A stretch of 47,126 nt of DNA, taken from contig NZ_RAWE01000058.1 in NCBI RefSeq assembly GCF_003611695.1, positions 1 to 47,126 of the forward strand, read 5' to 3'. The translations under genes were made by a program, and so were the position numbers. The notes under the pieces were generated by a model. The model did no database searches. It was not told where the DNA came from and saw only the letters and a program-made list of their open reading frames with translations. Source of the stretch: Corallococcus carmarthensis (GTDB lineage: Bacteria; Myxococcota; Myxococcia; Myxococcales; Myxococcaceae). This document shows positions 5,476 to 30,077 of this stretch, in pieces. Positions within the stretch are counted from its first letter, which is position 1. Every line of letters begins with the position of its first letter.

Positions 5476-5490
5476 TCTCTCAATTCAGTG

Positions 5491-5563
<73 letters not shown>

Positions 5564-5629
5564 GACTTTTGCTGCGTGCTTCCCGGTCCGCCGTGGGGGG
5601 CGGCCCGTGCCGTGAAGGCGGCGCGACTT

Positions 5630-6037: not shown

Positions 6038-6088
6038 CCTCGGGAGAGGAGAAGGTCGCTCGTGCGTAACGTGGCGGCTCGGCGACTG

Positions 6089-7468: not shown

Positions 7469-7483
7469 GGGTGACCTCTTCGC

Positions 7484-8149: not shown

Positions 8150-8239
8150 CGCGTCTTCCAGCGCGGGGGACAGGGGGGCGCTTTCACGTTCGGGCGGTCC
8201 GGAAGACGGCATCTCGGGCGCCGGGTCTGCGTTTGAAGA

Positions 8240-8325
8240 TGGCCCTCCCCGGACTCGAACCGGGACGCGGGGTCAGCCGCAGCGGATTTTGAGTCCGCCT
8301 CGTCTACCAATTTCGACAGAGGGCC
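8240..8325 (-). tRNA. tRNA-Leu (anticodon CAA)
   Basis: The 86-base reverse-strand sequence has acceptor stem GGCCCTC/GAGGGCC with discriminator A. The anticodon arm is GCGGA-CTCAAAA-TCCGC (anticodon CAA). A long variable arm follows (TGCGGCTGACCCCGC), as required for a class II leucine tRNA, then T arm CCCGG-TTCGAGT-CCGGG. The CCA end is not encoded. It diverges from the gene at 8425, with about 100 bases for both promoters. Confidence 0.97.
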
Positions 8326-8424
8326 CCTTGGGTGTGAGCGAGGCGGCCGAACGTATATCGCGCCTTCGGTTCGTGTGCATCCGAAGATTGCGGTGGTCCA
8401 CGCACACCGCTAAAGGGGCAGCGC

Positions 8425-9168
8425 ATGTACAACCTCCTCATCTCCCTGGCCGTCGGGCTGGCGGTCGGCGTGCTGGTGAAGTTCGCCGGCGGCTTCTCCT
8501 GGTGGGCCGGCATCGTGCCCGGCGTCATCGCCCTCTTCGCCACCTACATCGTGCTCGCCCGCCGGGTCTCCACCCGGGTCCAGGCACTGATGACGACGGT
8601 GCAGAATGATCTCCAGGGCCAGCCCGCCAACCAGAAGGAAGCCCAGGGGCGCGTGGACCGGGCCGTCAAGACGCTGGAGCAGGGCCTCGTCTGGGACAAG
8701 TGGCAGTTCCTCATCGGGCCGGAGCTGCACGCGCAGATCGGCATGCTGAAGTACATGGTGAAGGACCTGGACGGCGCGAAGCCCCACCTGGAGAAGGCCA
8801 GCGGCCGCAACTACATGGCCAAGGCCATGGAGGGCGCCCTGCACTTCCGCCGCAACGACGTGCCCGCCATGAAGACGTCCTTCGAGGCCGCGGTGAAGAG
8901 CGGCAAGAAGGAGTCCATCGTCTGGGCCGTGTACGCGTGGTGCCTCCTGCAGCAGAAGGACAAGGACGGGGCCCAGCGCGTGCTCGCACGCGGCGTGGAG
9001 CTGAACCCCTCCGACGAGAAGCTCAAGGGCAGCCTCGCCCAGCTGCAGAACGACAAGCGCCTGAAGATGAAGCCCTACGAGCCGCTCTGGTGGCAGTTCG
9101 GCCTGGAGGCGCCGCCGATGATGCCGCCCATGGGTGGCCGCCGCGTGCAGTTCACGAACCGGCGCTGA
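8425..9168 (+). CDS. Membrane-anchored helical-repeat (TPR-like) protein
   Basis: The protein has 247 residues. Residues 3-45 form two closely spaced hydrophobic helices (LLISLAVGLAVGVLVKFAGG and IVPGVIALFATYIVLA) that should anchor it in the inner membrane. The remainder is alpha-helical with TPR-like spacing (GMLKYMVKDLDGAKPHLEKA, AMEGALHFRRNDVPAMKTSFEAAV, AWCLLQQKDKDGAQRVLARGVELNPSDEKL), ending in a Pro/Met-rich tail (PPMMPPMGG). Such proteins usually scaffold protein complexes at the membrane, but no partner is evident here. The ATG follows AAAGGGG at suitable distance. A hairpin at 9173-9202 (8-bp stem, no T-run) follows the stop and may terminate transcription. Confidence 0.85.
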   Translation: MYNLLISLAVGLAVGVLVKFAGGFSWWAGIVPGVIALFATYIVLARRVSTRVQALMTTVQNDLQGQPANQKEAQGRVDRAVKTLEQGLVWDKWQFLIGPELHAQIGMLKYMVKDLDGAKPHLEKASGRNYMAKAMEGALHFRRNDVPAMKTSFEAAVKSGKKESIVWAVYAWCLLQQKDKDGAQRVLARGVELNPSDEKLKGSLAQLQNDKRLKMKPYEPLWWQFGLEAPPMMPPMGGRRVQFTNRR

Positions 9169-9730
9169 AGGCGCGGTGGCAGTGATGGCCCGGCGCCACC
9201 GCAATGGCGCCGGAGTCCCCCTTCGCGGCCCGCCGCGATCCCCTTCGCGGCCTGCCGCGATCCCGTCGATGGCGCCGCTTCGTCGCGCGCTTCCGGGGAG
9301 TACCCAACGGATCAGCCGCTCCACCCCACCTCCGGGCGCCCCTCCGGAGCGGCCCGCGTCCGGCAATTCCTACCGTGCGCGCCGCGCCCACGCTGCAACG
9401 TCTTCCGGTCGTCTTGTTGGCTGTCGCGCTGCCCCCCTTGCAACCCCCTGAAAAGAGGCCGGCCGTCGCGTGCAGCGCGGGGCACAGGGCTTGCTCTCGG
9501 GCAGGGACACGCGGGCGTCCGGGGCGGAAGACTCCAAAGCCCCCGCGGAGGCGGACGGGCTTGGCAGCCGGAGGTCTCGGGTGAAGGTTGGATGGGTGGG
9601 TGGGTGCTTGCAGAACGAGGCGGCGGCGGGTGCGCGTGGGGCGCAAGGGCGTGGGGAGCACCTCGAAGGGCGTGGCGCCCGAGACTTTCGGCCTGCCATT
9701 TCGGGACAGGCAAGCGGAGCGAACCAGTTC
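9169..9730. other. 562-base gene-free interval
   Basis: No convincing gene lies here. The frames that stay open on either strand are low-complexity Arg/Pro/Ala readings without a ribosome site. The interval holds a hairpin at 9173-9202 just after the upstream stop, a short tandem duplication (9218-9263), a G-rich stretch (9590-9612) and presumably the promoter of the diguanylate cyclase. An in-frame extension of the cyclase back to 9470 is possible on paper but has no domain-like sequence. Confidence 0.6.
9218..9263. repeat. Short tandem duplication, 22-base period
   Basis: Two adjacent copies of ccccttcgcggcc/tgccgcgatcc differ by one base (c/t) and overlap by two bases. Each copy also has partial internal symmetry (gcggc...gccgc). 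It lies in the non-coding interval before the cyclase gene. Confidence 0.7.
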
Positions 9731-10687
9731 ATGGAACGGCACGGCCGTAGCAGTGAGCGCGCGCTCCTGCTCATCATCGAGGACGACACCGGCGTACGCG
9801 AAGGCCTGATGGACCTGCTCGCCCCGCGCTTCGACGTGCTGGCCGCGGCGGACGCGGACGCGGGCGTGGAGCTGGCACGCGAGCACCGCCCGGACCTGGT
9901 GCTGCTGGATCGCTTCCTGCCCTCCGGGGATGGGCTGGCGGTCCTGGAGACGCTCCAGGGCGACGTGCGCACGGAGACGGTGCCGGTCATCTTCCTCACA
10001 GGGGACGCGGACGAGGCGACCCTGGAGAAATGCCTGGAGATGGGCGCCGTGGACTTCATCCACAAGCCGGCGAGCTCGCGCGAACTGCTCGCCCGCATCG
10101 ACCGCGCGGTGCGCCAGAGCGAGCAGCAGCGCAAGCTCCAGGTGCTGGCGCAGACGGACGCGCTCACCGGCCTGGCGAACTTCCGGGCGCTGTCGGTGCG
10201 GCTGGAGGACGAGTTCAAGCGCGCCGTGCGCTACGGCTACGCGCTGAGCGTGGTGGTCATCGACCTGGACCACCTCAAGGCCATCAACGACGGCATGGGC
10301 CACGACGTGGGCAACCGCGCCATCCTGGCCCTGGCCACCCTCATGCAGGGCAACCTGCGCGAGTCCGACTTCGCGGCGCGCTTCGGCGGCGACGAGTTCG
10401 TCGTGCTGCTGCCGCACCAGACGTCGCTGGAGGCCGCGGTGTTCGCGGAACGCCTGCGCTCGGAGCTGCGGAGCGTGAACGTGCAGCGCGGTGACGGGCG
10501 CCCGGCGCCCTTCGGGTTGAGCATCAGCGTGGGCGTGGCGGACCACACGGCCGACTCCCCGCGTGAGAGCACGGAAGCCTTGCTGAAGGCGGCGGACGCC
10601 GCGCTCTACGAGGCCAAGCGGGAGGGGCGCGACCGGGTGGTGGTGTACGGCCAGTCGCTCCACTCCCCTGTGGCGCAGCGGCACTGA
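9731..10687 (+). CDS. Response-regulator diguanylate cyclase (REC-GGDEF)
   Basis: This 318-residue cytoplasmic protein should make c-di-GMP from two GTP when phosphorylated. The receiver (about 10-128) has LLIIEDD, Asp60 in LVLLDRFLP, a TGD switch strand and FIHKP. The GGDEF domain (about 145-310) has the intact signature GGDEF at 219-223 and an RESD inhibitory site at 210-213, exactly five residues before it, so feedback inhibition is expected. DALTGLANFRAL and DLDHLKAINDGMGH are also standard. The ATG at 9731 follows a GGAG-type site. The flavoprotein-receiver fusion starts 25 bases downstream, so the two are probably one operon. No cognate kinase is adjacent. Confidence 0.95.
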   Translation: MERHGRSSERALLLIIEDDTGVREGLMDLLAPRFDVLAAADADAGVELAREHRPDLVLLDRFLPSGDGLAVLETLQGDVRTETVPVIFLTGDADEATLEKCLEMGAVDFIHKPASSRELLARIDRAVRQSEQQRKLQVLAQTDALTGLANFRALSVRLEDEFKRAVRYGYALSVVVIDLDHLKAINDGMGHDVGNRAILALATLMQGNLRESDFAARFGGDEFVVLLPHQTSLEAAVFAERLRSELRSVNVQRGDGRPAPFGLSISVGVADHTADSPRESTEALLKAADAALYEAKREGRDRVVVYGQSLHSPVAQRH

Positions 10688-10712
10688 CGGCGGGAAGGAA
10701 CGAGGGCGCGCG

Positions 10713-12449
10713 ATGAGCGGGACCAGCAAGCTGGCGAGTGGTTCGAGGGTGGCGATCGTCGGCGGCGGCATCGCCGGAGCGGGGCTCGCGGCTTCGCTGC
10801 TCTTCAACGGCCGCGCGCGGGGCGTGGCCCTGGATGTGCGCGTCTACGCGGGGGGCACCGAGGAGCGCACCGCGCCCCCTGCCCTGCTGACGCCGGAGTG
10901 CCGCTCGAGGCTGGCCGCGCTGGGTTGCCGCATCCCGCCGGAATGGCGCGCGCACGAGCTGCGCGGCGTGGAGGTGATTTCCCAGGGCGAGCGCGAACTG
11001 CTGCCGTGCGCGGCCGGCGGCCTGTGGGTCGTGGACGGTTGGCCCCGGGGTGAAGGCGGCCTGGACATGGTGCGCCACGTGCTGTCCACGGCGGCCAGCG
11101 CGCAGGGCGCCCGGTTCGTGGATCGCCACGTGGAGCGAGTGGAGCGGCAGGCGCCCGCCCCGGACGCGCCCGCGGCGGTGCGCAACGCGGGCCCCCTGGT
11201 GGTCCGCGCGCAAGGCAGCGGCGAGCGCTTCCATGCGGTGGCCCTGGCCGCGGGCGCGGGGCCGCTGCTGGGTGACGCGTTCTTCAAGGGCTTCCGTCCG
11301 GCGCCGTCCATGCCGGCGGTGCAGGCGCGGATCCAGGGCGCGATGACGGGGCGGGACCTCGCGCCGGTGGCGCGCCTGTGGGTGGCCCCGCTGCCTTCCG
11401 TGGATGCGCTGTTCCTCATCCCGGGCGCGTCGTCCGTGTATGCGCTGGCGTTCGGCGCGGCGGTGACACCCGCGGACCTGTGCCAGGTGCTGATGATGGC
11501 CGCGCGCGACGGCCTGATCGAGGAGGGCTTCGAGGTCGCCGCGCTGGAGACGACGCGGCTGCCCTTCGGTCCCGGCCGCACGCTGGTGGCGCCCGGGCAG
11601 CTGGCGGTGGGCCCCGCGGCCTTTGGCCATCCGTTGCAGGTGGGCCTGTCGGAGACGCTGGCGTCGTGCAGCCGCGCCGCGGTGGCGCTGCTGGATGGCG
11701 GGCTGGACGCGCCGTCACTGGAGCGCAGGTACGTGCGCGACGGGCTGGGCGAGCTGATGGAGGACGCGGCGGCGGGAGCGCGCTCCATCACCTGGCTGCG
11801 CCGCGCGGGCAAGCGGGCGCCCGCGGCATTTGTCGCTGCGCGGGCGAAGCACGCGTCGGGCGGCGTGTACGGCGGCGGCGTGCTGGGACTGAGCTCCCCC
11901 ACCCCGCTGGGATTGCTGTCCGCGGCGCGATGGTCGGGCGTGCGCGAGGTGGTGGGTTCGTGGCTGCGCACGCCGATGGAGCCCGTCCCCACGTTCGTGC
12001 CGGAGGTGGAGCCGGACCTGTACTACGTGGTGGACGACGACGCGGACACGCGCGAGGCGCTCACGCTGCTGTTGGAGAGCACCGGCGCACGCGTGGTCGC
12101 CTTCGCGGACGAACTGGCGCTGTTCTGCGCGGTGGCGCGCCGTCCGCCCACCGCCATCCTGTTGGACGTGGTGCTGCACTGGGTGGATGGCCTGCGCCTG
12201 TGTGAAGGCCTCAAGCAGCACCCGCTCACCCGCGACACGCGAGTGCTGGTGATGAGCGGCCTCAACCGTCCGCACGTGCGTCAGCGCGCGCTCGACGCGG
12301 GCGCGGAGGCCTTCCTCCCCAAGCCGGTGAACCCGGACCGCCTCCTCTGCCAGCTCACTGGCCGCGTGCCGGACCCGCTCGGCGCGCCGCTCGAAGTCAT
12401 CCGGCCCGCAGTCGTGGAAACATTTGGCGAAGACCGTTTTGCCTCCTGA
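10713..12449 (+). CDS. FAD-dependent oxidoreductase-like protein fused to a receiver domain
   Basis: Residues about 10-420 of 578 form a flavoprotein fold: the Rossmann motif VAIVGGGIAGAGLA at the N-terminus, LAAGAGP after the helical part, and a second FAD segment LAVGPAAFGHPLQVGLSETLASC. That segment matches the geranylgeranyl-reductase/FixC pattern except that the usual GD is GP. Residues about 434-555 are a receiver domain: YYVVDDDADTRE (acidic pocket), Asp485 in ILLDVVLHWVDG, VMSGLN, and FLPKPVNPDRL with the conserved Lys. Phosphorylation could gate the flavin domain, or the flavin domain could be a redox sensor. Both are inference. There is no signal peptide. It lies 25 bases after the diguanylate cyclase. 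Confidence 0.88.
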   Translation: MSGTSKLASGSRVAIVGGGIAGAGLAASLLFNGRARGVALDVRVYAGGTEERTAPPALLTPECRSRLAALGCRIPPEWRAHELRGVEVISQGERELLPCAAGGLWVVDGWPRGEGGLDMVRHVLSTAASAQGARFVDRHVERVERQAPAPDAPAAVRNAGPLVVRAQGSGERFHAVALAAGAGPLLGDAFFKGFRPAPSMPAVQARIQGAMTGRDLAPVARLWVAPLPSVDALFLIPGASSVYALAFGAAVTPADLCQVLMMAARDGLIEEGFEVAALETTRLPFGPGRTLVAPGQLAVGPAAFGHPLQVGLSETLASCSRAAVALLDGGLDAPSLERRYVRDGLGELMEDAAAGARSITWLRRAGKRAPAAFVAARAKHASGGVYGGGVLGLSSPTPLGLLSAARWSGVREVVGSWLRTPMEPVPTFVPEVEPDLYYVVDDDADTREALTLLLESTGARVVAFADELALFCAVARRPPTAILLDVVLHWVDGLRLCEGLKQHPLTRDTRVLVMSGLNRPHVRQRALDAGAEAFLPKPVNPDRLLCQLTGRVPDPLGAPLEVIRPAVVETFGEDRFAS

Positions 12450-12482
12450 CACCTACCTGCACGCAACTGAGATCACATCGAC

Positions 12483-12545
12483 GGGATAATCCCTACAAAA
12501 GCATGAAGCTTCGCACTTCATGCTCCATCTAAAAGGGAATCCCTC
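12483..12545 (+). promoter_or_regulatory. Leader with dyads ahead of the 292-residue protein gene
   Basis: This stretch is AT-richer than its surroundings. It contains a short dyad (gggat-a-atccc, 12484-12494) overlapping a GATAAT -10-like hexamer, then a perfect 9-bp stem (agcatgaag / cttcatgct) with a 7-base loop at 12500-12524. The ribosome site AAAAGGGA follows at 12531-12538, eight bases before the ATG. No good -35 was found. The hairpin could be a 5' UTR stability or control element, or the terminator of the upstream gene. Confidence 0.45.
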
Positions 12546-13424
12546 ATGTTCGCCTCGAAGCTGTCGCGCGTCGGCCAGACGTCGTCCCGGTTGTTCAAGC
12601 ACACGTCGGAGTTCACCCGTTCCTTCTCCACGAAGGTCCTGTCGCCAGAGCAGGCGCTCAAGGAGCGCGCGGATCAGAACCGCGTGCGGTTCCAGCAGCA
12701 CGACATCCTGAGCGACATCATGGACGTCGAGGATCGGCGCGACGGCGGCAACAACCAGTTCGTGCCGCGCATCCGGCCGGACGTGGAGCTGACCCGCCGG
12801 GACAACTTCCCGTTCAACGAGGTCCAGCCGAAGTACGACACGCCGAAGTCGGCCATCGACCGGGACGGCCGGCTGCAACCGGTCGAGCCGAAGGACCGCA
12901 CGGTGACGCTCACCGCGCACGTGGACGGCGCGAAGGAGACGAAGGCCCAGTCGCCCTTCACATCCTTCAGCGGCGTACCCGTGGGCGTGGATGGACAGGC
13001 CACGGAGAAGAAGCTCGTGGACAACCCGGACTACGGCCAGAGCCGCATCGTCCACAACCCGGCCCAGGACGCGAAGGGCGGGGACGTGTTCGATCAGTTC
13101 GACATCCAGCGCGACATCCGCACGTCCTCGCATCCGGGCCTGGATGAGACGGCCGTGAACCGCAGCCAGCCCGGCAAGCCGGTGTGGCAGCCGGAGCCGC
13201 ACGAGCGGAAGTTCCTGGCGGACGTCGGCGTGGATCCGACGAAGGCCAGCTTCACCTACCGCGAGCGCGCGATGATGAACTCCGCGCGGGATCAGGAGTA
13301 CCTGGTGCGCGGCACCATCCACGACTTCACGCTGGAGCGTCCGGATGACCAGGGCGGCCTGAAGCACGTGTCACGCGATCAGTTCGCCGACCAGTTCGAC
13401 GCCGCGCACAAGAAGACGAAGTAG
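12546..13424 (+). CDS. Unknown 292-residue charged protein
   Basis: I do not recognise this protein. It has no signal peptide or membrane helix. The N-terminus (1-35) is basic and Ser/Phe-rich (FKHTSEFTRSFSTK). The rest is strongly charged, rich in Asp, Arg, Gln, Pro and Lys, and probably partly disordered. It has recurring short Asp-Arg/Pro motifs and no Cys pairs or catalytic signatures. Initiation is well supported by AAGGGA eight bases upstream of the ATG. It follows the flavoprotein fusion after 96 bases that contain a hairpin, so it likely has its own transcript or control. The base composition of the coding part resembles that of its neighbours. Confidence 0.8.
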   Translation: MFASKLSRVGQTSSRLFKHTSEFTRSFSTKVLSPEQALKERADQNRVRFQQHDILSDIMDVEDRRDGGNNQFVPRIRPDVELTRRDNFPFNEVQPKYDTPKSAIDRDGRLQPVEPKDRTVTLTAHVDGAKETKAQSPFTSFSGVPVGVDGQATEKKLVDNPDYGQSRIVHNPAQDAKGGDVFDQFDIQRDIRTSSHPGLDETAVNRSQPGKPVWQPEPHERKFLADVGVDPTKASFTYRERAMMNSARDQEYLVRGTIHDFTLERPDDQGGLKHVSRDQFADQFDAAHKKTK

Positions 13425-16067: not shown

Positions 16068-16919
16068 CTAAGGCCGCACCACCGCATCCAGCCGCGAGCG
16101 CACCACGTCCGCCGCGCTGGCATCCCGCGCGAACACGAGCCGCGCGGTCTCCACGGACGACAGCACGCGTCCCGCCGCGCCCACCAGCGCACCCCGGCCC
16201 GCGGCCGTGGGTTCGGGCAGCAGCGCGTTCAGCAGCAGCACCCGGGCCACCTCCCCCGCGCCCTGCGTTTCCCACCGCGACGCCGCGTCCCAGCCCAGCG
16301 TGCCCACCGCGACAAGCGTCGCTTCGGCCGTTCGAATCGGCACGTTCCAGGGGGTTCCCGAGGCCCGCCACCCGCCACCGTGTACGGGCCACACCGCCAC
16401 CAGCTCATCCGCGAGCACGACGCCGCCCGCCTCACGCCACAGCCCGCCCAGGGTGCTCTTGCCCGCGCCGGAGTGGCCCACGAACAGCGCGGTCCGGCCC
16501 TCGTGCACCAGGCCCACGCCGTGGATCAACAGCCCGCCGCGCTTCGCCAACGCGGACGCGAGCATCACCTTGATCACGTTCTCCACCGGGTACCGGCCTG
16601 AACCGGTGACGTCCGCGTGGCTCCTGTCCTGGGAGAGCACCGCGGAGTACTCCGAGCCCTCCACCCGCAGCGTTCCCGAGTCACCGGGCTCAAGCCGGGG
16701 CAGCTCCTGCACGGTGGGCGGAGCAGTGGGAGTGGAAGGTGTCCGCATCACCAGCCGGGCATCGGAAGCCACGGCGTCTGGAGCGAGGAACGCGCCGAAC
16801 ACGCGCCGGAGCGGGCTTGCGAGCGCTTCCTCCTCCACGTCCAGCGACACCGTCCACCCGGCCAGGGTGATCCGGAGCGCGCCGTCACGGGGACCCGCGA
16901 GGGGGTCCCCGCGGTTCAC
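16068..16919 (-). CDS. HPr-kinase-like P-loop protein of a PqqD-linked operon
   Basis: The 283-residue product has a variable N-terminal beta-rich region and a C-terminal nucleotide-binding core. The core has LLIHGVGLVHEGRTALFVG then GHSGAGKST (148-156), and GGVVLADELVAV with the acidic residues that follow the P-loop in HPr kinase (HprK) folds. It lacks the phosphotransferase-system neighbours of true HprK. Relatives in RiPP clusters phosphorylate a Ser of a precursor peptide, which fits the small ORF just upstream. The start is GTG at 16919, overlapping that ORF's stop by four bases (GTGA), with GGAG about nine bases upstream. The longer open frame to 16991 would run over the small ORF and is rejected. 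Alternative: a kinase for another protein or small molecule. Confidence 0.85.
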   Translation of the reverse strand: MNRGDPLAGPRDGALRITLAGWTVSLDVEEEALASPLRRVFGAFLAPDAVASDARLVMRTPSTPTAPPTVQELPRLEPGDSGTLRVEGSEYSAVLSQDRSHADVTGSGRYPVENVIKVMLASALAKRGGLLIHGVGLVHEGRTALFVGHSGAGKSTLGGLWREAGGVVLADELVAVWPVHGGGWRASGTPWNVPIRTAEATLVAVGTLGWDAASRWETQGAGEVARVLLLNALLPEPTAAGRGALVGAAGRVLSSVETARLVFARDASAADVVRSRLDAVVRP

Positions 16920-17077
16920 GGCACGCACTCCGATTCGCCGGGGATGGTGCACGTGGAGAGCTGCGCCAGCGCGACGAAGGGCTGCTCCCACAGGATGGCG
17001 GGAGGCACGTACGCGGCGGGCGCGGCCGGCTTCGGCACGGAGGGACCCGCGAGTGGTTGTGAAGGTCGCTGGCTCAC
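16916..17077 (-). CDS. Candidate RiPP precursor peptide (53 residues)
   Basis: This short frame on the reverse strand fills the space between the 1008-residue protein and the kinase exactly. GTG at 17077 is preceded by AGGTGG at 8 bases, 12 bases after the upstream stop. Its TGA overlaps the kinase GTG. Residues 1-22 are Pro/Ala-rich. Then comes YVPPAILWEQPF (23-34), whose Tyr23, Pro26 and Ile28 match the YxxPx(L/I) signature that lasso-type leaders present to RRE proteins. The tail has Ser41, Thr42, Cys43, Thr44, Gly47, Ser49 and Cys51 and ends CVP. A PqqD-like RRE protein and an HPr-kinase-like protein are in the same operon. Function is inferred. An alternative in-frame GTG lies four codons earlier. 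Confidence 0.72.
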   Translation of the reverse strand: MSQRPSQPLAGPSVPKPAAPAAYVPPAILWEQPFVALAQLSTCTIPGESECVP

Positions 17078-17089
17078 GTGATGGCCCAC

Positions 17090-20000
17090 CTAGAAGGGCA
17101 CCGGGAAGGCACAGATTCGACCATCCAGAGTACCGACATGCAACCGGCTAACGGTGTGATCGATGGTCGGCGTGCCGATGATCTGCGCCGGCCCCACCGT
17201 CACCTGCCCGGAATCCACACCCGTATCCAACTCCAACTGATGCACCTTGCCGTCCGAGCTGTTGACGTAGATGCGCGCCACGCCGTTCTGGTTGAGGCTG
17301 AACGAACCGGTTGAACCCACGATGGCCGTCGACCACAGCAGCACCGGCATGTTGGTCGCGTCCATCTCATAGCGCTCCACCTTGCCGTCCGCCGTGCTTA
17401 TCACGAAGCCCCGGCCCAGGGGCCGCGCGAAGCTGGTGAGCGCGCCCACCGCGGCGGGCCGCACGTCGACCGTCCATGCCTTCATGTACGTGGTTCCATT
17501 CACGCCGTGCACCCGGCCATCGCTGGTGGCGACGAGGGCCTGGTTGGTCGTGGCGTTGCGGACCACGCCGAACTCCAGGTCTCCCAGCGCCAGCCGCGCG
17601 ACCTCCGCGCCCGTAAGGCTGTTGAGCACGCGCAGCGTGGCGGTGCTCACCCCCGACATGGTCGCTACGTAGAGCCGGTTCGTCGTGTAGTCCACCATCA
17701 TGCCGCCGCTCACCATGCCCAGATCCCCGGGGCGGTAGCGCCAGATGAGGGCGCCCGTGGCCGCGTTCAGCGCGACCACCTGATTCTGCGCGGATGAGTT
17801 GCGCGTACCGAAGAACGCCAGGTCCACGTTCGAGTACGTCGTCCGGTACTCCGGGTTCGCGTAGTCCAGCAGCTGCGTCACCGGGAACGAGCTGATGCTC
17901 CCCAGCCCCAGCGTCGTGTTCTTCCACAGGAACTCGCCCGTGGCTGCGTTGAGCACCGCCGGCACGCCGGTAGTGTCACCCACGACGAGCCACTGCTGCC
18001 CGGGCCGGCCCAGCAGCGGCACCACCGGAAAGCGGGTTTCGATCTTGGCGGGCATCTTCACTGGCCGGAAGCGCTCCGCGCCGTCCTCGGACGGGTTCAC
18101 GGTGTTCGTGAGCATGCCCACCACCGAGTCGTTGGACGAGCTGAAGATGCCCACGCCCAGCTCCGTAATGGGCTGATGGAGCGAGGACATGCCCACCGAG
18201 TAGCACCACAGCGGGTTGCCCGCCACGCGCGCCCGGGGCGTGGCCAGAAGGCCCACCGAGGTGGGCTGGTTGCCTGGCCCGTACCGCAGCTGGTCGTCCG
18301 CGTTGAACACCCGGTAGTAGTACGTCGTGCCGTTCGTCACCGACGTGTCCGTGAAGGACGACGCGGAGCTGAACTCATCCGTGTACGCCACGGTCGCGTT
18401 GCCCAGCACGTCCCCCACCGCGTAGCGCACACCGCTGGTCGGCGCGGTGTTGGGCGTCGCCCCCTGCGCGCGCAGCACCAGGGTGCCGCCGTGGTTGAAG
18501 GGGTTGTCCCAGGTGAGCGTCACGCTGCCGTCGCGGGCCACGCCGGTGAGGCGCCCCACGTCCGGGGACGCGGTCACCGCGAGCAGCGTCATCGTCCCCT
18601 CCACGCGGATGCGCGGATCGTTGTAGCCCTGGTTCAGCTCCAGCCGGTGGCGGAACGCCGTGTCCGCGGTGACGGCGGTGAAGCCCGAATACGTGATGCG
18701 GAAGGTGGCCTCGCCCCCCACCGGGATGCCGGACTCCGACTCCCAGGTGTACCCGGCCGCGTCCGTGGAGACGACCCAGTCACCAAAGGCCTGCGGACCC
18801 GAGGCGGCCACCGCGAAGTAGTTCACCGCGGGCTTGAACAGCTTCACCTCGTAGATGGGCAGCGAGCCCCGGTTCTGCACCGTGTACGCCACCGTCACGG
18901 CCGTGGCCGCGGTGGACATCGTCTCCTGGCTCAGCCGCACGCGGTGCTCCACGATGCGGCCCTTGCGCGCGGTGACGACATCCCCCGCCACCGCCGAGCC
19001 GTTGAGCGTCCCGTCCACCTGCGCCTGGAACTGGTAGCTGGCGCCGGGCGTGCCCGACACCTGGTAGCGCCACGTGAACTGCGCGGAAGCCCCCGGCGCC
19101 AGCTGCGCCACGCTCTCCGGAGACGGGCCGGCCACGAGCGTCGCCGCCGCGCTGCCCGACCGCACCGGCGTGCGCGGACGCACCTGGGCGTACGTGTTCG
19201 TGGTGGAGGTGTTGAACACCGTCAGGCGCAGCGTCACCTGATCACCGGCGAATGCGTCCACGACGTCCATGTCCGCCGCCGCGACCAGGTTGCCCACGTC
19301 CGCCATGGGCGAGTCCACGAGCGGCGCGTTGGACGGGGTGGCGGCCGTCGTGCGCGCCCGGACACGCGCGGACACGGCGCCAGCGGCGGTGGGCCGCAGG
19401 TTGACGGCGATGACGCCCGCGGCCCGCACCGCCACCGTCTTGTTGGCGTCCTTGCTCAGGGTGGTGAGGGGCACGCTGCTCGTGGACGTGGGGTTGTCCA
19501 CGGTCACGGTGGCCGAGCCCGTCCCGCGGTTCTCCACCACCACGCGCGCCACGGTCGTGCCGTTGACCGCCAGCACGCGGGGCGCCAGCGTCACGTTCGC
19601 GGCCAGGATGCCGCGTGTCCACGGGGTCATGGTGTTGATGTTGTACGTGTAGTTCGTGCCGTCGCACTGGTCGCGGCCGTAGGTGCCCGTCGCGAGGCGC
19701 TCGGTGGCGTTGTCCGTGGTGCGGTTTGACGGCGCCACCACGCTCAGCACGAAGCGCGCGGACTCGTTCCGCCCCAGGCCGCGCCCTTCGTCCACACACC
19801 CCAGCGTGGACTGGAAGGTGATGCGCCGTTCGTTGGAGTCGATGTACTCGACCTTCCAGTTCGGGTTCTCCTCCGCCGGCAGGCCGGCCAGCAGCTGATA
19901 GCCGGTGGGGATGACGAAGGACACCTCCGACAACCGGGCGTCGTTCACGGCCGTGGACGTGTTGGTCACCTCCACGACGAGGTCGGACGCGTCGTCCATC

Positions 20001-20116
20001 ACCACCCGCGCGACCGTCTCTCCGGCGGCGGGGACGGGGCGCACGGTCCAGGTCGTCTGGGGAAAGCCCACCGCGGGCAACAGCATGGCGACGAGCGCGA
20101 GGATGCGGACGTTCAT
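17090..20116 (-). CDS. Large secreted beta-sandwich/propeller protein
   Basis: This is a 1008-residue exported protein. The signal peptide is MNVRILALVAMLLPAVGFPQ. Residues about 25-160 resemble conserved-repeat (DUF11-like) sandwiches of surface proteins. Residues about 165-560 contain several CARDB-like Ig-type domains (VARVVVENRGTGSATVTV, VTLRLTVFNTSTTNTYAQV, AYTVQNRGSLPIYEVKLF). Residues about 565-690 look like fibronectin III (DGSVTLTWDNPF, TYYYRVFNADDQ). From about 700 to the end it has PQQ-like propeller blades (VLNAATGEFLWKN, VVALNAATGALIWRY, STADGKVERYEMD, VGTLDGRICAFPVPF). It probably acts outside the cytoplasm as a binding or display scaffold. No catalytic residues are evident. ATG 20116 has GAGG at 7 bases and lies 13 bases after the lipoprotein stop. 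Confidence 0.9.
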   Translation of the reverse strand: MNVRILALVAMLLPAVGFPQTTWTVRPVPAAGETVARVVMDDASDLVVEVTNTSTAVNDARLSEVSFVIPTGYQLLAGLPAEENPNWKVEYIDSNERRITFQSTLGCVDEGRGLGRNESARFVLSVVAPSNRTTDNATERLATGTYGRDQCDGTNYTYNINTMTPWTRGILAANVTLAPRVLAVNGTTVARVVVENRGTGSATVTVDNPTSTSSVPLTTLSKDANKTVAVRAAGVIAVNLRPTAAGAVSARVRARTTAATPSNAPLVDSPMADVGNLVAAADMDVVDAFAGDQVTLRLTVFNTSTTNTYAQVRPRTPVRSGSAAATLVAGPSPESVAQLAPGASAQFTWRYQVSGTPGASYQFQAQVDGTLNGSAVAGDVVTARKGRIVEHRVRLSQETMSTAATAVTVAYTVQNRGSLPIYEVKLFKPAVNYFAVAASGPQAFGDWVVSTDAAGYTWESESGIPVGGEATFRITYSGFTAVTADTAFRHRLELNQGYNDPRIRVEGTMTLLAVTASPDVGRLTGVARDGSVTLTWDNPFNHGGTLVLRAQGATPNTAPTSGVRYAVGDVLGNATVAYTDEFSSASSFTDTSVTNGTTYYYRVFNADDQLRYGPGNQPTSVGLLATPRARVAGNPLWCYSVGMSSLHQPITELGVGIFSSSNDSVVGMLTNTVNPSEDGAERFRPVKMPAKIETRFPVVPLLGRPGQQWLVVGDTTGVPAVLNAATGEFLWKNTTLGLGSISSFPVTQLLDYANPEYRTTYSNVDLAFFGTRNSSAQNQVVALNAATGALIWRYRPGDLGMVSGGMMVDYTTNRLYVATMSGVSTATLRVLNSLTGAEVARLALGDLEFGVVRNATTNQALVATSDGRVHGVNGTTYMKAWTVDVRPAAVGALTSFARPLGRGFVISTADGKVERYEMDATNMPVLLWSTAIVGSTGSFSLNQNGVARIYVNSSDGKVHQLELDTGVDSGQVTVGPAQIIGTPTIDHTVSRLHVGTLDGRICAFPVPF

Positions 20117-20129
20117 GGCGTGCCTCACG

Positions 20130-20714
20130 TCACGGCTCCAGGGTGAAGGACGTGGCGGCCAGCTGCGCCCCATCCAGGAAGAAGCGCACCTGCCAGGTGC
20201 CCGTCATGCGCGCCATGGACACCGGCGTGCCCGCCACCGGCAGCGAATAGCGCAGCGTGCGCGTCTCCTCCGGCGGCGCCTCCACCGTCGCGCTCCGCTT
20301 CTCGTACGGACGCCCGCCCGGCGCGATGAACTCCACGTCCACCAGGCCCTTGTTCCGCACGCCGCTCACCACGAAGTCCACGTCCACCTGCAGCACCTCG
20401 GACAGGGCCGTGGGCTCCGCGCCAGCGCCCACCACCGCCGCGCTCCCGGACGGGGGCGGCAGCGCCACCGGAGGCGGCTCCTCCTCCACGACCTCGTCCG
20501 GAGGCGGCTCTTCCTCGCCGGGCACCTGCGCCGGGGGCGGCGGCCGGGCCACGCTCCCGCCACCGGCCAGCACGTCCGTCGGATCCACGGGGGTGACGGA
20601 ACCACCGCCCTGCCCCGGCTTCACGGCCGTGGGCGGCGGCAGGGGGGACACCCCTTCCGTGCACGCCGACAGCATCACCACCCCCGCCAGCACCGCCACG
20701 AGCGCTCGCGTCAT
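20130..20714 (-). CDS. Lipoprotein with Pro/Glu-rich linker and beta-sandwich domain
   Basis: The 194-residue protein starts MTRALVAVLAGVVMLSAC, a clear type II signal with lipobox LSAC (Cys18 lipidated). A linker of Pro, Gly and Glu (about 20-95) is followed by a compact beta-rich domain ending in WQVRFFLDGAQLAATSFTLEP, like a small Ig-type fold. Its ATG overlaps the PqqD stop (ATGA), so translation is coupled. It is probably a membrane partner of the large secreted protein encoded next. No catalytic motif is seen. The fold statement is inference from the strand pattern. Confidence 0.88.
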   Translation of the reverse strand: MTRALVAVLAGVVMLSACTEGVSPLPPPTAVKPGQGGGSVTPVDPTDVLAGGGSVARPPPPAQVPGEEEPPPDEVVEEEPPPVALPPPSGSAAVVGAGAEPTALSEVLQVDVDFVVSGVRNKGLVDVEFIAPGGRPYEKRSATVEAPPEETRTLRYSLPVAGTPVSMARMTGTWQVRFFLDGAQLAATSFTLEP

Positions 20715-21025
20715 GTCTCCTCCAGAGGCGCGGCACCGGCCGGCGCGCGCACTTCATCCAACAGACCGCGCCGCTGGAGTTCCTCCAGGAAGCGCAGCGT
20801 GTCGGTCAGCACCGGACCGACGTCGGTCGAAAACTCGGAAGCCACCTGCTCCGCCACTGCCCGGGCCGTGTGCTGTCCATCGCACAGCGCCCAGATGCGC
20901 GCCGCCGTCGGGTTGAGCCCGCGCAGCGTGCGCCCCTCCGCGTCCAGCACCAGGAAGTCCGCGCCAAAGCCCTCCCCCGAGGTCCCCTGCCGCCGCCGGG
21001 GAACGCTGCCTTCCTGAAAGCTCAT
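20711..21025 (-). CDS. PqqD-family RRE protein
   Basis: This 104-residue protein has the winged-helix-like PqqD pattern: FGADFLVLDAEGRTLRGLNPTAARIWALCDG, then QHTARAVAEQVASEFSTDVGPVLTDTLRFLEELQRRGLLDEV. The N-(P/x)TAxxIWxLxDG core followed by a helix pair and LxxxGL(L/I) ending is the signature of RiPP recognition elements, which bind leader peptides and deliver them to modifying enzymes. The start at ATG 21025 overlaps the upstream peptidase stop (ATGA), and its own stop overlaps the lipoprotein start. PqqD-like proteins also occur in polysaccharide-linked operons, so a RiPP role depends on the small ORF at 16916-17077. Confidence 0.88.
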   Translation of the reverse strand: MSFQEGSVPRRRQGTSGEGFGADFLVLDAEGRTLRGLNPTAARIWALCDGQHTARAVAEQVASEFSTDVGPVLTDTLRFLEELQRRGLLDEVRAPAGAAPLEET

Positions 21026-21432
21026 GCGCGGCCCGTCCTTCCCAGCCACGCGGCCACCCGGCGCTTCAGCGTCGCGCGCAAGCGGCCCACGAGGCGCGGC
21101 CCCACGTCCCAGCGCTCCATCTCCAGCAGCGCGCCGCCCCGGCGCACACGCCGGGCCCGTCCAAGGATACGGAAGAGGGGCAGCGGCGGATCTTCCAACC
21201 CGCCATTGTCCCCACGAAGCGCGCACACGCTGCCGTCACACCAGCGCACGCGGTGCAGCACCAGCGAGGACTCGAAGCGCGCCAGCACCACCTCACCCGG
21301 GCGCGGCGCCTCCGCCAGCGGCTCCACCTCCGCCACGTCGCCCGCACGCAACGACGGCCACATGCTGTCCCCGGCGACGGGGATCCAACGCGGGCCATCG
21401 ATCACGGAGGCGGGCTGGGGAGCGCTCGACAT
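21022..21432 (-). CDS. S24/S26-family signal-peptidase-like protein (Ser-His type)
   Basis: The 136-residue protein carries the compact S26 catalytic fold: WIPVAGDSMWPSLRAGDVAEVEP with nucleophile Ser23, then EVVLARF and LVLHRVRW with His60 where SipW/eukaryotic-type signal peptidases place His instead of Lys, and LRGDNGG as the box-D-like strand. It has no obvious N-terminal membrane anchor. The C-terminus (about 105-136) is basic and helical. It could cleave a precursor or an exported partner. ATG 21432 is used. A TTG at 21453 in the same frame is possible, and neither has an ideal ribosome site. It is the first gene of the operon that ends with the kinase. Confidence 0.8.
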   Translation of the reverse strand: MSSAPQPASVIDGPRWIPVAGDSMWPSLRAGDVAEVEPLAEAPRPGEVVLARFESSLVLHRVRWCDGSVCALRGDNGGLEDPPLPLFRILGRARRVRRGGALLEMERWDVGPRLVGRLRATLKRRVAAWLGRTGRA

Positions 21433-26839: not shown

Positions 26840-28369
26840 CTAGAAGGCGGGAACGCCGATGGTGGTGATGAGGGCCTTCAGGTCGTCGTCGGTGAAGAAG
26901 AAGCCCGCGCCAAAGAAGAAGTCGCGGCCGGCGATGAGGCGCTTGGTGGCCGCGTCGCGCTGCTTGGCGTTGAGGATGTCGTCCATGCCCGCCACGACGA
27001 ACAGGTGGTCGAACGCCTGGGCGCGCAGGGTGGCGCGAAGGCGCGGGTAGCGCAGCTCGTCCGCGGTGAAGTTGAACGCGTCCATCTTCAGGGTGAGCGC
27101 GTCGTCGAAGAAGTGCAGGTCCGCGCCCACACCGCCAGTGGACTCGATGAGGCCCACGCGCAGGGTGGTGAAGTAGTAGCGCTTGGCGAACTGGAGGCTG
27201 ACCTTGAAGGACTCCTTGGTCACCTTCTGCGTCTGGATGACCGGGTCGCCGTCCGACGGCGGGTTCGTCTGCACCACCTGCGTGCTGACGGAGCCGCGAG
27301 GGTCGTCGATGATCTCCAGCAGGTAGTACTTGTCCGGCTTGGGGATGAGCCGCAGCGACAGGCCGTTCTTCGACGCCCCCTGGGACACCAGGTACGTGCT
27401 GAACAGGCCCACCTCCGTCTGGAGGGTGGAGAGGCGGGTGGCGAACTCGCTGACGTCGGTGACGGCCTCGCCCAGGCGCTGGCCCAGCTGCTCGTCGGTG
27501 AGCAGCGCGCCCGCGGCGCCTTCGCCGTCCTTCACCTTGCGGGTGATCTCCTCCAGGTTGGCGAGCGTGTTGTCCAGCCGGCCCAGCGTCTGCTTGAGGC
27601 TGGAGACGCTCTCCTTGAACTCCCCTTCCCCGCTGCCCACGATGTTCTTGACGGTGCCCAGCACCTCGCGGACGTCCTGGGTGATGCGCTCCACGTTGGT
27701 GACGATGCGCGTCACCTCCGCGCCGTTGCCCTGGGTGAGGGCGCGCACGTCGGAGGACACGCCCTCCACGTTCGCCATGATGGTGTCCAGGCGGTCCGTG
27801 TTGCGGCGCACCGTCGCGTCCACCGAGTCCGACAGGCGGACCAGGTTCTCGACAATCCGCTCCAGGCTGCCCGCGCCCTTCTCACCGCCCAGCACCTCGC
27901 GCAGCGCGCCCGTCACCTGCTGGATGTCGGAGGTGATCTGCGACAGGGACTCGAAGACGGCCTCCACGCCCTGGGTGTCGATGACGCGGCGGATCTGCCC
28001 GCCGTTCTCCAGCTCCGGGGCCTGCTCCGTGCCGGGGTTCAGGTCCAGCAGGTAGTCGCCCAGGAGCGACTCCGAGCGCTTGGTGACCGCGGCGTCCTGG
28101 CGGATGTCCACGCCCTTGCGGATCTTCAGCCAGATCTTCGCGCGGGTGCCCTCCAGGCTGATGTCGCTGATCTCACCCACGGGGATGCCGGCGATCTGCA
28201 CCCGGCCACGCACCGCCAGACCGGACGCGTCCCGGAAGTAGGCCCACACCTTGGTGGAGTCTCTGTCGCTCAGTCCGCCCTTCGTGGCGAACAACACGAA
28301 CGTGATGAGGAAACCACCGGCGGCGAGGACCAGCAGGCCAACACGGAAGGGCGTGACGAGCTTCTTCAC
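26840..28369 (-). CDS. MCE (MlaD-like) protein with long helical stalk and barrel-like C-terminus
   Basis: The 509-residue protein has one N-terminal membrane anchor (VGLLVLAAGGFLITFVLFA, about 10-30), one MCE domain (about 38-125: VWAYFRDASGLAVRGRVQIAGIPVGEISDISL, SLLGDYLLDLNPG), then about 190 residues of amphipathic helix with periodic Val/Leu/Ile. The C-terminal region (about 320-509) has alternating aromatic strands (YYLLEIIDD, RYYFTTLRVGLIE, VGADLHFFDDALTLKMDAF, FFFGAGFFFTDDD) and ends in Phe, like an outer-membrane barrel. By family it moves lipids between the membranes with the MlaE/MlaF pair upstream (119 bases away). The barrel reading is inference. Confidence 0.9.
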   Translation of the reverse strand: MKKLVTPFRVGLLVLAAGGFLITFVLFATKGGLSDRDSTKVWAYFRDASGLAVRGRVQIAGIPVGEISDISLEGTRAKIWLKIRKGVDIRQDAAVTKRSESLLGDYLLDLNPGTEQAPELENGGQIRRVIDTQGVEAVFESLSQITSDIQQVTGALREVLGGEKGAGSLERIVENLVRLSDSVDATVRRNTDRLDTIMANVEGVSSDVRALTQGNGAEVTRIVTNVERITQDVREVLGTVKNIVGSGEGEFKESVSSLKQTLGRLDNTLANLEEITRKVKDGEGAAGALLTDEQLGQRLGEAVTDVSEFATRLSTLQTEVGLFSTYLVSQGASKNGLSLRLIPKPDKYYLLEIIDDPRGSVSTQVVQTNPPSDGDPVIQTQKVTKESFKVSLQFAKRYYFTTLRVGLIESTGGVGADLHFFDDALTLKMDAFNFTADELRYPRLRATLRAQAFDHLFVVAGMDDILNAKQRDAATKRLIAGRDFFFGAGFFFTDDDLKALITTIGVPAF

Positions 28370-28488
28370 CTGATGTGACTCCGAGCGCTACCACCGGCCG
28401 CGCGCGACTCTAACGATTTGCATGCCGGGTGCCAGCTTTTCATGAAGGGCTGGAATCCTTGGGGGACCGCATTCCCTACCCGAAGGTC

Positions 28489-29262
28489 TTAGTTCTTGCC
28501 GAACCACGTCTGGAGGAAGACCTGGACGGCCGGGTGCTGGGACTCCCGCAGCTGCTCCGGCGAACCGTGCTCCACGATGACGCCCTTGGACAGGAAGGCG
28601 ATCTGGTTGGCCACGTTGAAGGCGGACGCGATGTCGTGGCTGATGACCACGCTGGTGACGCCCAGTTCCTTCTGCGCGGTGAGGATCATGTCGTCCACGG
28701 AGTCCGTGGTGATGGGATCCAGGCCGGTGGTGGGCTCGTCGTAGAGGACGACCTTGGGATCCAGCACCACCGCGCGCGCCAGGCCCACGCGCTTGCGCAT
28801 GCCGCCGGACAGGTCCGCGGGGAAGCGGCCCTCCACCTCGCGCTTGAGGCCCATGAGGTCCAGGCGCTTGCGCACCTGCACGCGGATCTCGTCTTCGGAC
28901 AGCGTCGTGTGCTGGCGCAGGGGGAAGGCGACGTTCTCGAACACCGTCATGGAGTCGAAGAGCGCGGCGGCCTGGAACACCATGCCGAAGCTGCGGCGCA
29001 CCTGCTGCAGCCCTTCCACGCTCATGGGGACGATGTCCTGCCCGTCGATGATGACCTTGCCGCTGTCCGGCTTGAGCAGGCCGATCATGTGCTTCATCAA
29101 CACCGTCTTGCCGGAGCCGGAGCCGCCCAGGATGACGCAGGTGCTGCCCGCGGGCACGGTGAGGTTGATGCCAGTGAGGACCTTGTTGCCCGCGAACGTC
29201 TTGTGCAGGTCCACGATGTCGATCATGGCCCGCGCGGAGCCGGGCGGAGTCTGGGGGCCCAT
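28489..29262 (-). CDS. mlaF: ABC transporter ATPase, MlaF type
   Basis: This 257-residue ATPase powers retrograde or anterograde lipid transport with MlaE. It has Walker A (ILGGSGSGKTVLMKHMIG), Q-loop (GMVFQAAALFDSMTV), signature (LSGGMRKRVGLARAV), Walker B (VVLYDEPTTGLDP) and the H-loop (VVISHD). FQAAALFDSMTVFENVAFPL is characteristic of the Mla/Ttg2A subgroup. ATG 29262 overlaps the permease stop (TGATG), which I take as the start. The more usual family start MIDIV at 29226 is an alternative, and neither has a strong ribosome site. Confidence 0.95.
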   Translation of the reverse strand: MGPQTPPGSARAMIDIVDLHKTFAGNKVLTGINLTVPAGSTCVILGGSGSGKTVLMKHMIGLLKPDSGKVIIDGQDIVPMSVEGLQQVRRSFGMVFQAAALFDSMTVFENVAFPLRQHTTLSEDEIRVQVRKRLDLMGLKREVEGRFPADLSGGMRKRVGLARAVVLDPKVVLYDEPTTGLDPITTDSVDDMILTAQKELGVTSVVISHDIASAFNVANQIAFLSKGVIVEHGSPEQLRESQHPAVQVFLQTWFGKN

Positions 29263-30077
29263 CAGTGCATCAACATGCCGACGATGAAGTCGAGGATGAA
29301 GATGGCCAGCGCGCTCGACACCATGGCCTCCGTGGTGGCCTGGCCCACGCCCTTGGCGCCGCCGGACGCGTTGTAGCCCTTGAAGCAACAGATGAGGGCC
29401 ACGGAGAGACCGAAGATGGCGCCCTTGATCAGGCCCTCGTAGACGTCCGCTGGCGCCATCCACTGCTGGGTGCGTGACAGGAACGTGCCGGGGGAGATGC
29501 CCAGGCCGAACACGGCGACGATGTACGCGCCCGTCATGCCCGTGGTGTTGAAGAGCATGGTGAGCGCGGGGACCATGAACAGGCCCGCGAGCACCCGGGG
29601 CACCAGCAGGTACTGCACCGGGTTGACGGCCATGGTCTCCAGCGCGTCCACCTGCTCGGTGACGCGCATGGTGCCCAGCTCCGTGCACATGGCGGAGCCG
29701 GCGCGCATGGTGACCATCAGCGCGGCGAACACGGAGGCCAGCTCGCGCGTGAGCGTCAGGGCGACGGTGGGGCCCACCAGGCTCTCCGCGTCGAACAGGG
29801 CGAACGCGGTGGAGGTCTGGAGGGCGAACACCATGCCGGTGAACGTGCCGGTGAGCCCCACGATGAAGATGGAGCCCACGCCCACGAAGTCCAGCTGGGT
29901 GAAGAGGTTCTGCAGCCGGAACGGGCGGCGCACGCTCCAGCGGAAGACGTCCAGGCCCAGGGCGACGACGCCGCCAATGCTGCTGACGACGTCGATGATG
30001 CCCTTGCCGAGGCCCTCCACCGACTGGGAGAAGGCGCCGGTGAACCGGTTGGGTTTGCTGGGGGTCTCGGTGGTCAT
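29262..30077 (-). CDS. mlaE: ABC transporter permease, MlaE type
   Basis: This 271-residue permease of the MlaE family (lipid asymmetry/MCE transport) has an amphipathic N-terminus, about five membrane helices, and the conserved motifs FVGVGSIFIVGLTGTFTGMVFALQ, LTRELASVFAALMVTMRAGSAMCTELGTMRVTEQVDALETMAVNP and a C-terminal GVGQATTEAMVSSALAIFILDF. It couples to the MlaF ATPase through a one-base overlap and presumably to the MCE protein further down. The 238 bases to the divergent zinc-ribbon gene hold both promoters and no other gene. Confidence 0.96.
   Translation of the reverse strand: MTTETPSKPNRFTGAFSQSVEGLGKGIIDVVSSIGGVVALGLDVFRWSVRRPFRLQNLFTQLDFVGVGSIFIVGLTGTFTGMVFALQTSTAFALFDAESLVGPTVALTLTRELASVFAALMVTMRAGSAMCTELGTMRVTEQVDALETMAVNPVQYLLVPRVLAGLFMVPALTMLFNTTGMTGAYIVAVFGLGISPGTFLSRTQQWMAPADVYEGLIKGAIFGLSVALICCFKGYNASGGAKGVGQATTEAMVSSALAIFILDFIVGMLMH

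Follow-up and report, generated by a model that had tools for sequence, protein, structure and literature searches.

What do six genes running head to tail on the minus strand of Corallococcus carmarthensis (Myxococcota) DNA make together? They occupy positions 16068-21432 of the window, i.e., the whole 47,126-nucleotide stretch that was analysed, which belongs to a 10.8 Mb genome with a third-position GC of about 0.9 (Table 1). An earlier note had described them as a translationally coupled operon with the logic of a RiPP system, and its six genes and their junctions (ATGA, ATGA, 13 bases, 12 bases and GTGA) were all reproduced when recomputed. The RiPP logic was likewise supported, and the product of the conserved six-gene operon appears, by analogy, to be a small phosphorylated peptide, made in the manner of the linear polyphosphorylated peptides (LPP).

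Table 1. Genes of the operon and predicted parts of the precursor peptide, in window positions
Feature	Position	Strand	Remark
Ser-His S26/S24-like peptidase, predicted leader protease, 136 aa	21022..21432	-	
Discrete PqqD-like RiPP recognition element (RRE), 104 aa	20711..21025	-	
Lipoprotein, 194 aa	20130..20714	-	lipobox LSAC by eye
Large secreted protein, 1008 aa	17090..20116	-	
Precursor peptide, 53 aa (VSQRP...ECVP), GTG start	16916..17077	-	
Predicted leader, residues 1-38	16964..17077	-	
Predicted core, 15 residues, QLSTCTIPGESECVP	16919..16963	-	cut site inferred
Ser41 (core Ser3), predicted phosphate acceptor	16955..16957	-	
HprK/PEPCK-fold kinase, 283 aa	16068..16919	-	

The reading depends on the small ORF being conserved as a protein. 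Among 33 sequences its codon positions 1, 2 and 3 differed at 0.097, 0.098 and 0.234. For the leader part the values were 0.047, 0.039 and 0.217, revealing purifying selection that was strong on the leader, the core being much less constrained. This selection, together with the co-occurrence described below, ruled out a chance ORF, and the role of precursor proposed for it was supported. The Pfam scan returned no match for the peptide, and no signal peptide was seen on it by eye. Its leader has a variable Pro-rich N-terminus followed by Y23-V-P-P26-A-I-L-W-E-Q-P-F-V-A-L-A38, with an AxA-type end, and the Y, P, W, Q, F, V, L and A of this stretch were invariant in 12 aligned peptides. Counting from Tyr, position 16 was Ala in 39/39 type-1 peptides and position 19 was Ser in 38 of them, the remaining one having Ser at 20, while the core presented two cysteines in the arrangement C43-x-x-P-G-x-x-x-C51. 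Type-2 peptides had no AxA end and carried their hydroxyl residue mostly at position 20.

Strong matches to the peptide (E<=1e-9) occurred in 53 of 195 genomes, all within the family of the window, and the kinase was found at E<=1e-25 in 52 of these 53 and in no other among the 145 genomes searched for it. The order S26-PqqD-lipoprotein-propeller-peptide-kinase, placed between hisS and miaA, was kept in 34 of the 36 complete loci, and the operon was probably vertically inherited; no plasmid match to the kinase was obtained at E<=1e-3. The PqqD and kinase genes thus mostly travel with the peptide, the opposite of what the earlier note had named as grounds for refutation. In genome G091 the kinase lies on a different contig from S26-PqqD-peptide, and at seven of the kinase loci, L136-L141 and L087 (the last with 1 kb of upstream contig), PqqD, S26 and the peptide all went unmatched. 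A parallel system made of PqqD, an Ig/FG-GAP propeller, a peptide, a kinase and an S26 protein, sometimes GNAT-fused, was found in several genera. Moreover, of 76 related loci, chosen by likeness to the window kinase, 63 carried a YxPP-type ORF no more than about 1 kb from the start of the kinase (the one at L068 being probably spurious), with a pattern that was picked after the peptides had been seen; 17 same-strand ORFs of this type in 901 kb elsewhere gave an expectation of ~1.5 beside kinases.

The closest published parallel is the LPP family, reported in May 2026 from Bacillota and exemplified by the lpp cluster of Paenibacillus alginolyticus, in which an RRE, an HprK-like kinase and an archaeal-type (Ser-His) signal peptidase serve a precursor with a YxxP leader (PMC13381572). 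There, the kinase is the primary modifying enzyme and the peptidase is the leader protease, and the precursor consensus YxxPxVLxHQxIxFETxxS is cut after T-1 and phosphorylated on core S3 (PMC13381572). The window encodes the same combination, namely a predicted Ser-His signal-peptidase-like leader protease, a discrete Tyr-reading RRE and an HprK-like kinase without any cyclase, and its peptide shares the YxxP leader and the Ser at predicted core position 3, with Y23, P26, A38 and Ser41 at matching spacing. Written as Y1-P4-[IV]6-L7-Q10-A16|-S19, the window peptide is identical to the LPP consensus at Y1, P4, L7, Q10 and S19 and conservative at I6, and its A16 is allowed by the T/A rule of the LPP authors (PMC13381572), whereas the LPP leader residues H9, I12, F14 and E15 are unmatched. 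By this analogy, cleavage would fall after Ala38 and Ser41 is the predicted phosphate acceptor; LppK did not phosphorylate an S3T variant (PMC13381572), and one relative (G090, locus L071) carries Thr at the acceptor position.

Since the gene set and the leader logic match LPP, the maturases are known in kind; neither the absence of a known maturase nor the "phosphopeptide pathway of its own kind" put forward in the earlier note was supported. Several features nevertheless set the window system apart. The LPP core has 45 residues, against a predicted 15 with two Cys here, and the patchy distribution of LPP differs from the single genomic site seen in almost all complete loci. An NTP transferase and an MsbA-type exporter are counted among the LPP core genes (PMC13381572); neither is present in the window system, which adds a lipoprotein and an Ig/propeller protein, and it is this added pair and these missing genes that are unusual relative to LPP. 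The LPP authors regarded the family as confined to Bacillota and its biological role as unknown (PMC13381572). No published account of such a system outside Bacillota was found in the open-access literature, and neither "Myxo" nor "propeller" occurs in the main text of PMC13381572.

The recognition protein matched PqqD (PF05402, E 9.3e-15), and a role in PQQ biosynthesis was rejected on an equivalog score of 30.6 bits versus the 46 required. A second PqqD of the genome lies on a 3-kb contig, where no kinase was noticed. By phmmer, the LPP element LppB (9x8z) aligned to the window RRE over residues 22-90 at E 0.034, and the best PDB match was the lasso RRE TbiB1 (E 0.0036), so that the window protein is no nearer to LppB than to TbiB1. 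In the alignment to 9x8z, D75, F79 and N38 correspond to D70, F74 and N33 of the Tyr-reading pocket of LppB, and among 68 homologues this D was kept in 65, the F in 68 and the N in 51, being replaced by Ser in 16.

In its catalytic part the kinase adopts the HprK/PEPCK fold; residues 112-283 of the predicted model are mostly at pLDDT 80-96 and residues 1-111 below 50. Foldseek placed HprK/P first (1kkl, E 7.1e-5, prob 1.00, TMq 0.30, TMt 0.47), followed by PEPCK, whereas the best 50 VIA-align matches listed were all PEPCK (Z 11.9, rmsd 4.0, 169 residues aligned), without HprK among them; hhalign of the kinase against HprK gave 87.5% over 59 columns. The motifs His133, Walker A at about 148-156 and Asp171-Glu172 were preserved across 76 aligned kinases (His in all, Walker A Lys in 99%, Asp in 99% and Glu in 95%). 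The earlier proposal of the kinase as likely modifying enzyme was supported. Fold, P-loop, His and Asp-Glu motif are shared with HPr kinase/phosphorylase and PEPCK, from which the window kinase differs in having only about 13-19% identity in the structure matches. A plain HPr kinase was rejected because the genome has its own HprK, on contig C507. The Pfam scan gave nothing above a cut-off for the kinase, and the NCBIfam models HprK_rel_B (23.1/200 bits) and HprK_rel_A (17.2/200 bits) remained below theirs.

The peptidase matched Peptidase_S24 (PF00717, E 1.2e-7) and showed weak, below-cut-off matches (4e-4) to the TIGR02228 archaeal signal peptidase I and Ni-SOD protease models, reaching 20.2 of 51.85 bits for the archaeal one; phmmer found no match in the PDB, the predicted model was poor (mean pLDDT 49) and no membrane segment was seen by eye. 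Candidate catalytic residues are Ser23 (21364-21366), His60 (21253-21255) and Asp81, kept in 97%, 100% and 100% of 64 homologues, with Cys in place of the Ser in L086 and L089. Judged by motif, they would pair with S29, H68 and D93 of LppS (PMC13381572).

The remaining two products point to the cell envelope. The lipoprotein bears a Pro/Glu-rich stretch, and the 1008-residue protein combines an N-terminal Ig-like region, by weak matches, with a C-terminal BamB/ACSF4-like beta-propeller (Pfam ACSF4-type propeller 3.6e-10 and BamB 7.7e-6, both under cut-offs). The genetic tie of the peptide system to a secreted protein, put forward earlier, was supported. Within one order, separate systems unite a propeller protein of either type, BamB-like or FG-GAP, with peptide, RRE, kinase and protease in the same way.

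The Pfam scan took in 36 ORFs of the window, those at 10844-11992 and 12453-13367 on the minus strand overlapping opposite-strand genes, and left out some, e.g., 28489-29688, which adjoins MlaE. Among these 36, a lasso cyclase, a B2 protease and a radical SAM enzyme were absent, as the earlier note had stated, and neither an NTP transferase nor an MsbA-like exporter was found, 28489-29688 lying outside the scan; MlaD and MlaE genes are present in the window, farther from the operon.

Taken together, the operon is read, with a probability of roughly two in three, as an LPP-like RiPP pathway. The PqqD-like RRE would hold the precursor via Y23xxP26, the HprK-like kinase would phosphorylate Ser41, perhaps repeatedly, and the Ser-His S26 peptidase would then cut after Ala38. 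The molecule released would be a linear phosphopeptide of 15 residues, QL(pS)TCTIPGESECVP, in which the two Cys may form a pair, and it would act in concert with two envelope proteins of the same operon, the lipoprotein and the Ig/beta-propeller protein. Several observations weigh against this reading: the absent NTP transferase and exporter genes, the four unmatched leader residues, the Thr of G090, the type-1 peptides of G128 for which no type-1 kinase was found in draft contigs, the kinase of G091 on a separate contig, an RRE no nearer to LppB than to TbiB1, the differing type-2 peptides, and the Cys of L086 and L089. The gene content of this pathway, its conservation and motif spacing, the kinase fold and the Tyr-type RRE residues rest on data; the acceptor residue, the cut site and the order of steps would be those suggested by LPP, and both joint action with the secreted proteins and a route out of the cell are conjectural.

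Other origins of this gene set can be envisaged. A reduced radical SAM RiPP, whose ancestral radical SAM/SPASM maturase was lost or is encoded elsewhere and in which phosphorylation is secondary, is unlikely, although cluster L076, from another family, holds all six protein families (a relative of the lipoprotein included) in a different order, with a radical SAM/SPASM gene immediately following the kinase and an NTP_transf_5 gene upstream. Of the 80 loci fetched, six had a radical SAM match by tblastn (L076, L084, L088, L089, L090 and L135), there is one such gene in the Anaerolineales locus L147, and weak ScmC, ScmD and HprK_rel matches also favour this origin, the ScmC model matching relatives with a best value of 3.1e-7 for L088. 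However, all six loci are outside the family of the window, whose fetched type-1 loci gave no radical SAM match, the leader and the core Ser and Cys are kept without such an enzyme, and LPP are made without one (PMC13381572). The SynChlorMet, GeoRSP and HPr-rel-A cassettes of the NCBIfam models do resemble the operon in joining a PqqD-family chaperone to an HprK-related protein, but the window cluster has no radical SAM enzyme and its matches are under the curated cut-offs; membership was rejected, the PqqD protein scoring 29.1/100, 24.5/100 and 21.1/35 bits.

Somewhat less probable again is a purely intracellular role, in which the phosphorylated peptide, as a regulator or chaperone client, would control how the propeller protein is made or exported, without any secreted product. 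No exporter adjoins the operon, the peptide shows no signal sequence by eye, the propeller gene is tightly coupled, and genome G128 keeps two type-1 peptides with propeller and lipoprotein genes while a type-1 kinase was not found in its draft contigs; a released product nevertheless accounts better for the variable core with its Cys and for the presence of a dedicated protease. A lasso-type pathway with its cyclase elsewhere deserves very little credence. The earlier note had likened the RRE protein, the peptide and the kinase to parts of kinase-tailored lasso pathways, and paeninodin indeed shares an HprK-like kinase, an RRE and a Y/WxxP leader; the RRE match to TbiB1 and the existence of kinase-bearing lasso-like clusters (L148, with a lasso-like precursor and an AsnB-like protein, by eye) speak for a lasso-type pathway. 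In paeninodin the modified residue is the C-terminal Ser, whereas the predicted acceptor of the window is near the core N-terminus. Moreover, the absence of macrolactam cyclase and B2 from the 36 scanned ORFs led to rejection of a lasso pathway in the window, the protease is Ser-His and not B2, and the -2 residue would be Leu if the cut is after Ala38, versus the Thr usual in lasso leaders. Given the published LPP set of RRE, kinase, Ser-His peptidase and YxxP leader, LPP is nearer than lasso.

Within the LPP-like reading, the link of the peptide genes to a large secreted protein is unexplained. One tentative possibility is a RiPP lineage whose phosphorylated, Cys-bearing core serves as a dedicated ligand or prosthetic peptide of the surface Ig/beta-propeller protein of the same operon, the phosphopeptide module having arisen separately from Bacillota LPPs; since two propeller types are paired alike in separate systems, the pairing itself would then be the function. 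A conserved system beyond Bacillota, held at one locus across genera and tied to a defined secreted protein, offers a candidate phosphopeptide partner, as well as a short and specific target for detection. The YxPP-type ORFs beside kinases also hint at kinase-first RiPPs beyond the published survey, which began from LppS homologues (PMC13381572). In a Corallococcus relative, seven antiSMASH clusters are labelled "RRE-containing" (PMC8538283).

The sizes and junctions proposed earlier for the six genes (S26 peptidase, PqqD-like RRE protein, lipoprotein, 1008-residue secreted protein, 53-codon peptide and HprK-like kinase) were confirmed, all on the minus strand. The PqqD protein scored above the Pfam cut-off, as did the Peptidase_S24 match of the S26 protein, and the large secreted protein gave a BamB/ACSF4-like propeller match under it, with weak Ig-like matches N-terminal to the propeller; the precursor peptide had no domain match in Pfam or profile searches. 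Ser23, His60 and Asp81 of the S26 protein were kept across homologues. Two other S26-like genes (loci L086 and L089) carry Cys in place of the catalytic Ser (GTCMWP, GACMWP), which suggests a cysteine nucleophile.

The 53-codon ORF, previously read as a peptide gene, proved to be one: in relatives it is under purifying selection, with differences by codon position of 0.097/0.098/0.234 (0.265/0.224/0.433 for the kinase gene, 32 sequences). The median dN/dS was 0.27 in 494 of 528 pairs from 33 equal-length sequences, 34 pairs with dS outside 0.1–2 being left out, and the pairs are not independent because the sequences are related. Moreover, the differences were 0.047/0.039/0.217 in the leader and 0.150/0.161/0.252 in the core, a contrast that is the pattern of a RiPP precursor. 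In the 39 peptides of the window's type (type 1; 29 distinct segments), the Pro-rich N-terminus varies and leads into a shared stretch close to Y-x-[PA]-P-A-I-L-W-E-Q-P-F-V-A-L-A; the tail behind this stretch is less constant and holds Ser and two Cys, which mostly flank Pro-Gly.

Of the phylum's 195 genomes, 63 had a peptide-profile match at E<=0.1 and 53 had one at E<=1e-9; all 53 belong to the window's family and have one match each, save G128 with two. The kinase was matched in 93 of the 145 genomes of the order at E<=0.001; at E<=1e-25 it occurred in 52 of the 53 peptide genomes (G128 being the exception) and in no others, in agreement with the proposed co-occurrence. G128 and G091 are exceptions to strict linkage; in G090, the kinase match was 1.1e-22 and the peptide match, real-looking by eye, 0.007. 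All six genes were present in 36 of the 60 first-fetched loci (tblastn), and the order hisS-S26-PqqD-lipoprotein-propeller-peptide-kinase-miaA was conserved in 34 of these, the other two having no miaA or no hisS match.

The conserved His was found in all 76 aligned kinases, and Walker A and Asp-Glu in 95–99%. A structure model (alignment of five), confident for residues 112–283 and not for 1–111, had HprK/P and PEPCK as top Foldseek matches (VIA-align Z 11.9 against PEPCK); against the order's own HprK, hhalign gave 87.5% over 59 columns, and the true HprK is encoded by a separate gene in the genome. A YxPP-type ORF ended between -900 and +120 bases from the kinase domain start in 41 of 42 type 1 loci (profile E<=1e-50), one of them probably spurious (L068), and in 22 of 34 others, against a background of 17 same-strand ORFs per 901 kb, the pattern having been defined once peptides had been seen. 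The L044 peptide was missed by this filter and detected in a separate search. No such ORF was found at the filter position in the other 12 loci, of which seven (L087, L136–L141) also had no PqqD or S26 match and one (L076) has its peptide further upstream. L136–L141 hold HprK-like kinases of two genera, around which neither PqqD nor S26 nor a peptide was matched.

According to PMC13381572, which defines linear polyphosphorylated peptides (LPP), the archaeal-type signal peptidase LppS (S29, H68, D93) cuts after T-1, requiring the RRE protein LppB in vitro, and LppK phosphorylates core S3 and not Thr at that position; the leader motif is YxxPxVLxHQxIxFETxxS. Counting from Tyr, the window peptide has P4, I6, L7, Q10, Ala16 (39/39 type 1 peptides) and Ser19 (38/39), and predicted cleavage after Ala16 places Ser19 at core position 3. 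The window RRE has D75, F79 and N38 at the positions of LppB D70, F74 and N33. By analogy, the RRE would bind Y23xxP26, Ser41 would be phosphorylated and S26 would cut after Ala38, releasing 15 residues; from linkage alone, we infer a role for the lipoprotein and propeller protein.

The operon thus probably works like an LPP pathway; membership is not claimed because Pfam showed neither an NTP transferase nor an exporter, MsbA-type or other, among the 36 window ORFs scanned, motif positions H9, I12, F14 and E15 differ, the G090 peptide has Thr at the acceptor position, linkage fails in G128 and G091, type-2 peptides (the other YxPP kind) have no AxA at the end of the leader and mostly carry their Ser/Thr one position further on, the window RRE is not closer to LppB than to a lasso RRE, and the S26 triad was matched with LppS by motif only.

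Related systems occur elsewhere. In L076 (G015, a different family), the profile order is S26-PqqD-peptide-propeller-lipoprotein-kinase, with a radical SAM/SPASM gene after the kinase, NTP_transf_5 upstream and the peptide YEPPAIAWDEAFEPLT|AAS (bar, inferred cut site). A second system, in several genera, is made up of PqqD, a ~1950-residue secreted protein, a YxPP peptide, a kinase and an S26 protein. Its large proteins carried Ig-like and FG-GAP domains in 3/3 tested (L072, L089, L095; Pfam), and Pfam placed a GNAT domain C-terminal to the S26 part in L072; tblastn matched both in further loci, not all of which had the GNAT part. This fusion would perhaps link removal of the leader with acetylation of the N-terminus thereby exposed. 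The S26 of L149 aligned with that of the window at 33% identity, and no YxxP peptide was found adjoining its kinase-PqqD-S26 genes. By eye, L148 looks like a kinase-bearing lasso-like cluster outside Bacillota, and the small ORFs of L161 are apparently a multi-copy RiPP precursor.

Coordinates of features in the window and in fetched loci
Locus	Position	Feature
Window	26840-30077	Lipid transport genes, MlaD- and MlaE-type
L072	4218-5183	S26-like N-terminal region fused with GNAT acetyltransferase; full-length tblastn matches in other loci
L088	4249-9937	In series: PqqD, S26, radical SAM match, YEPP peptide, kinase, Peptidase_C25 (gingipain-type) protein; secreted partner a protease instead of a propeller
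L147 (Anaerolineales)	2855-12100	PqqD, radical SAM/SPASM, YxxP peptide (7460-7621), HprK-like kinase, large secreted protein resembling the L088 C25 peptidase by eye; flanked at either end, again by eye, by NTP-transferase-like genes
L149 (Clostridia bacterium, Bacillota relative)	1374-2747	Consecutive kinase, PqqD-like ORF end, S26
L148 (Promineifilum)	5199-8537	Lasso-like precursor (RPYRKPLLTRFGEIRTQ...), HprK-like kinase, AsnB-like protein by eye
L161 (3-kb contig C345, window's genome)	265-543; about 840-1120	Second PqqD-like gene and small ORFs repeating a phrase like MYIQSxIVRVSAxxDKCTCSLGMGV
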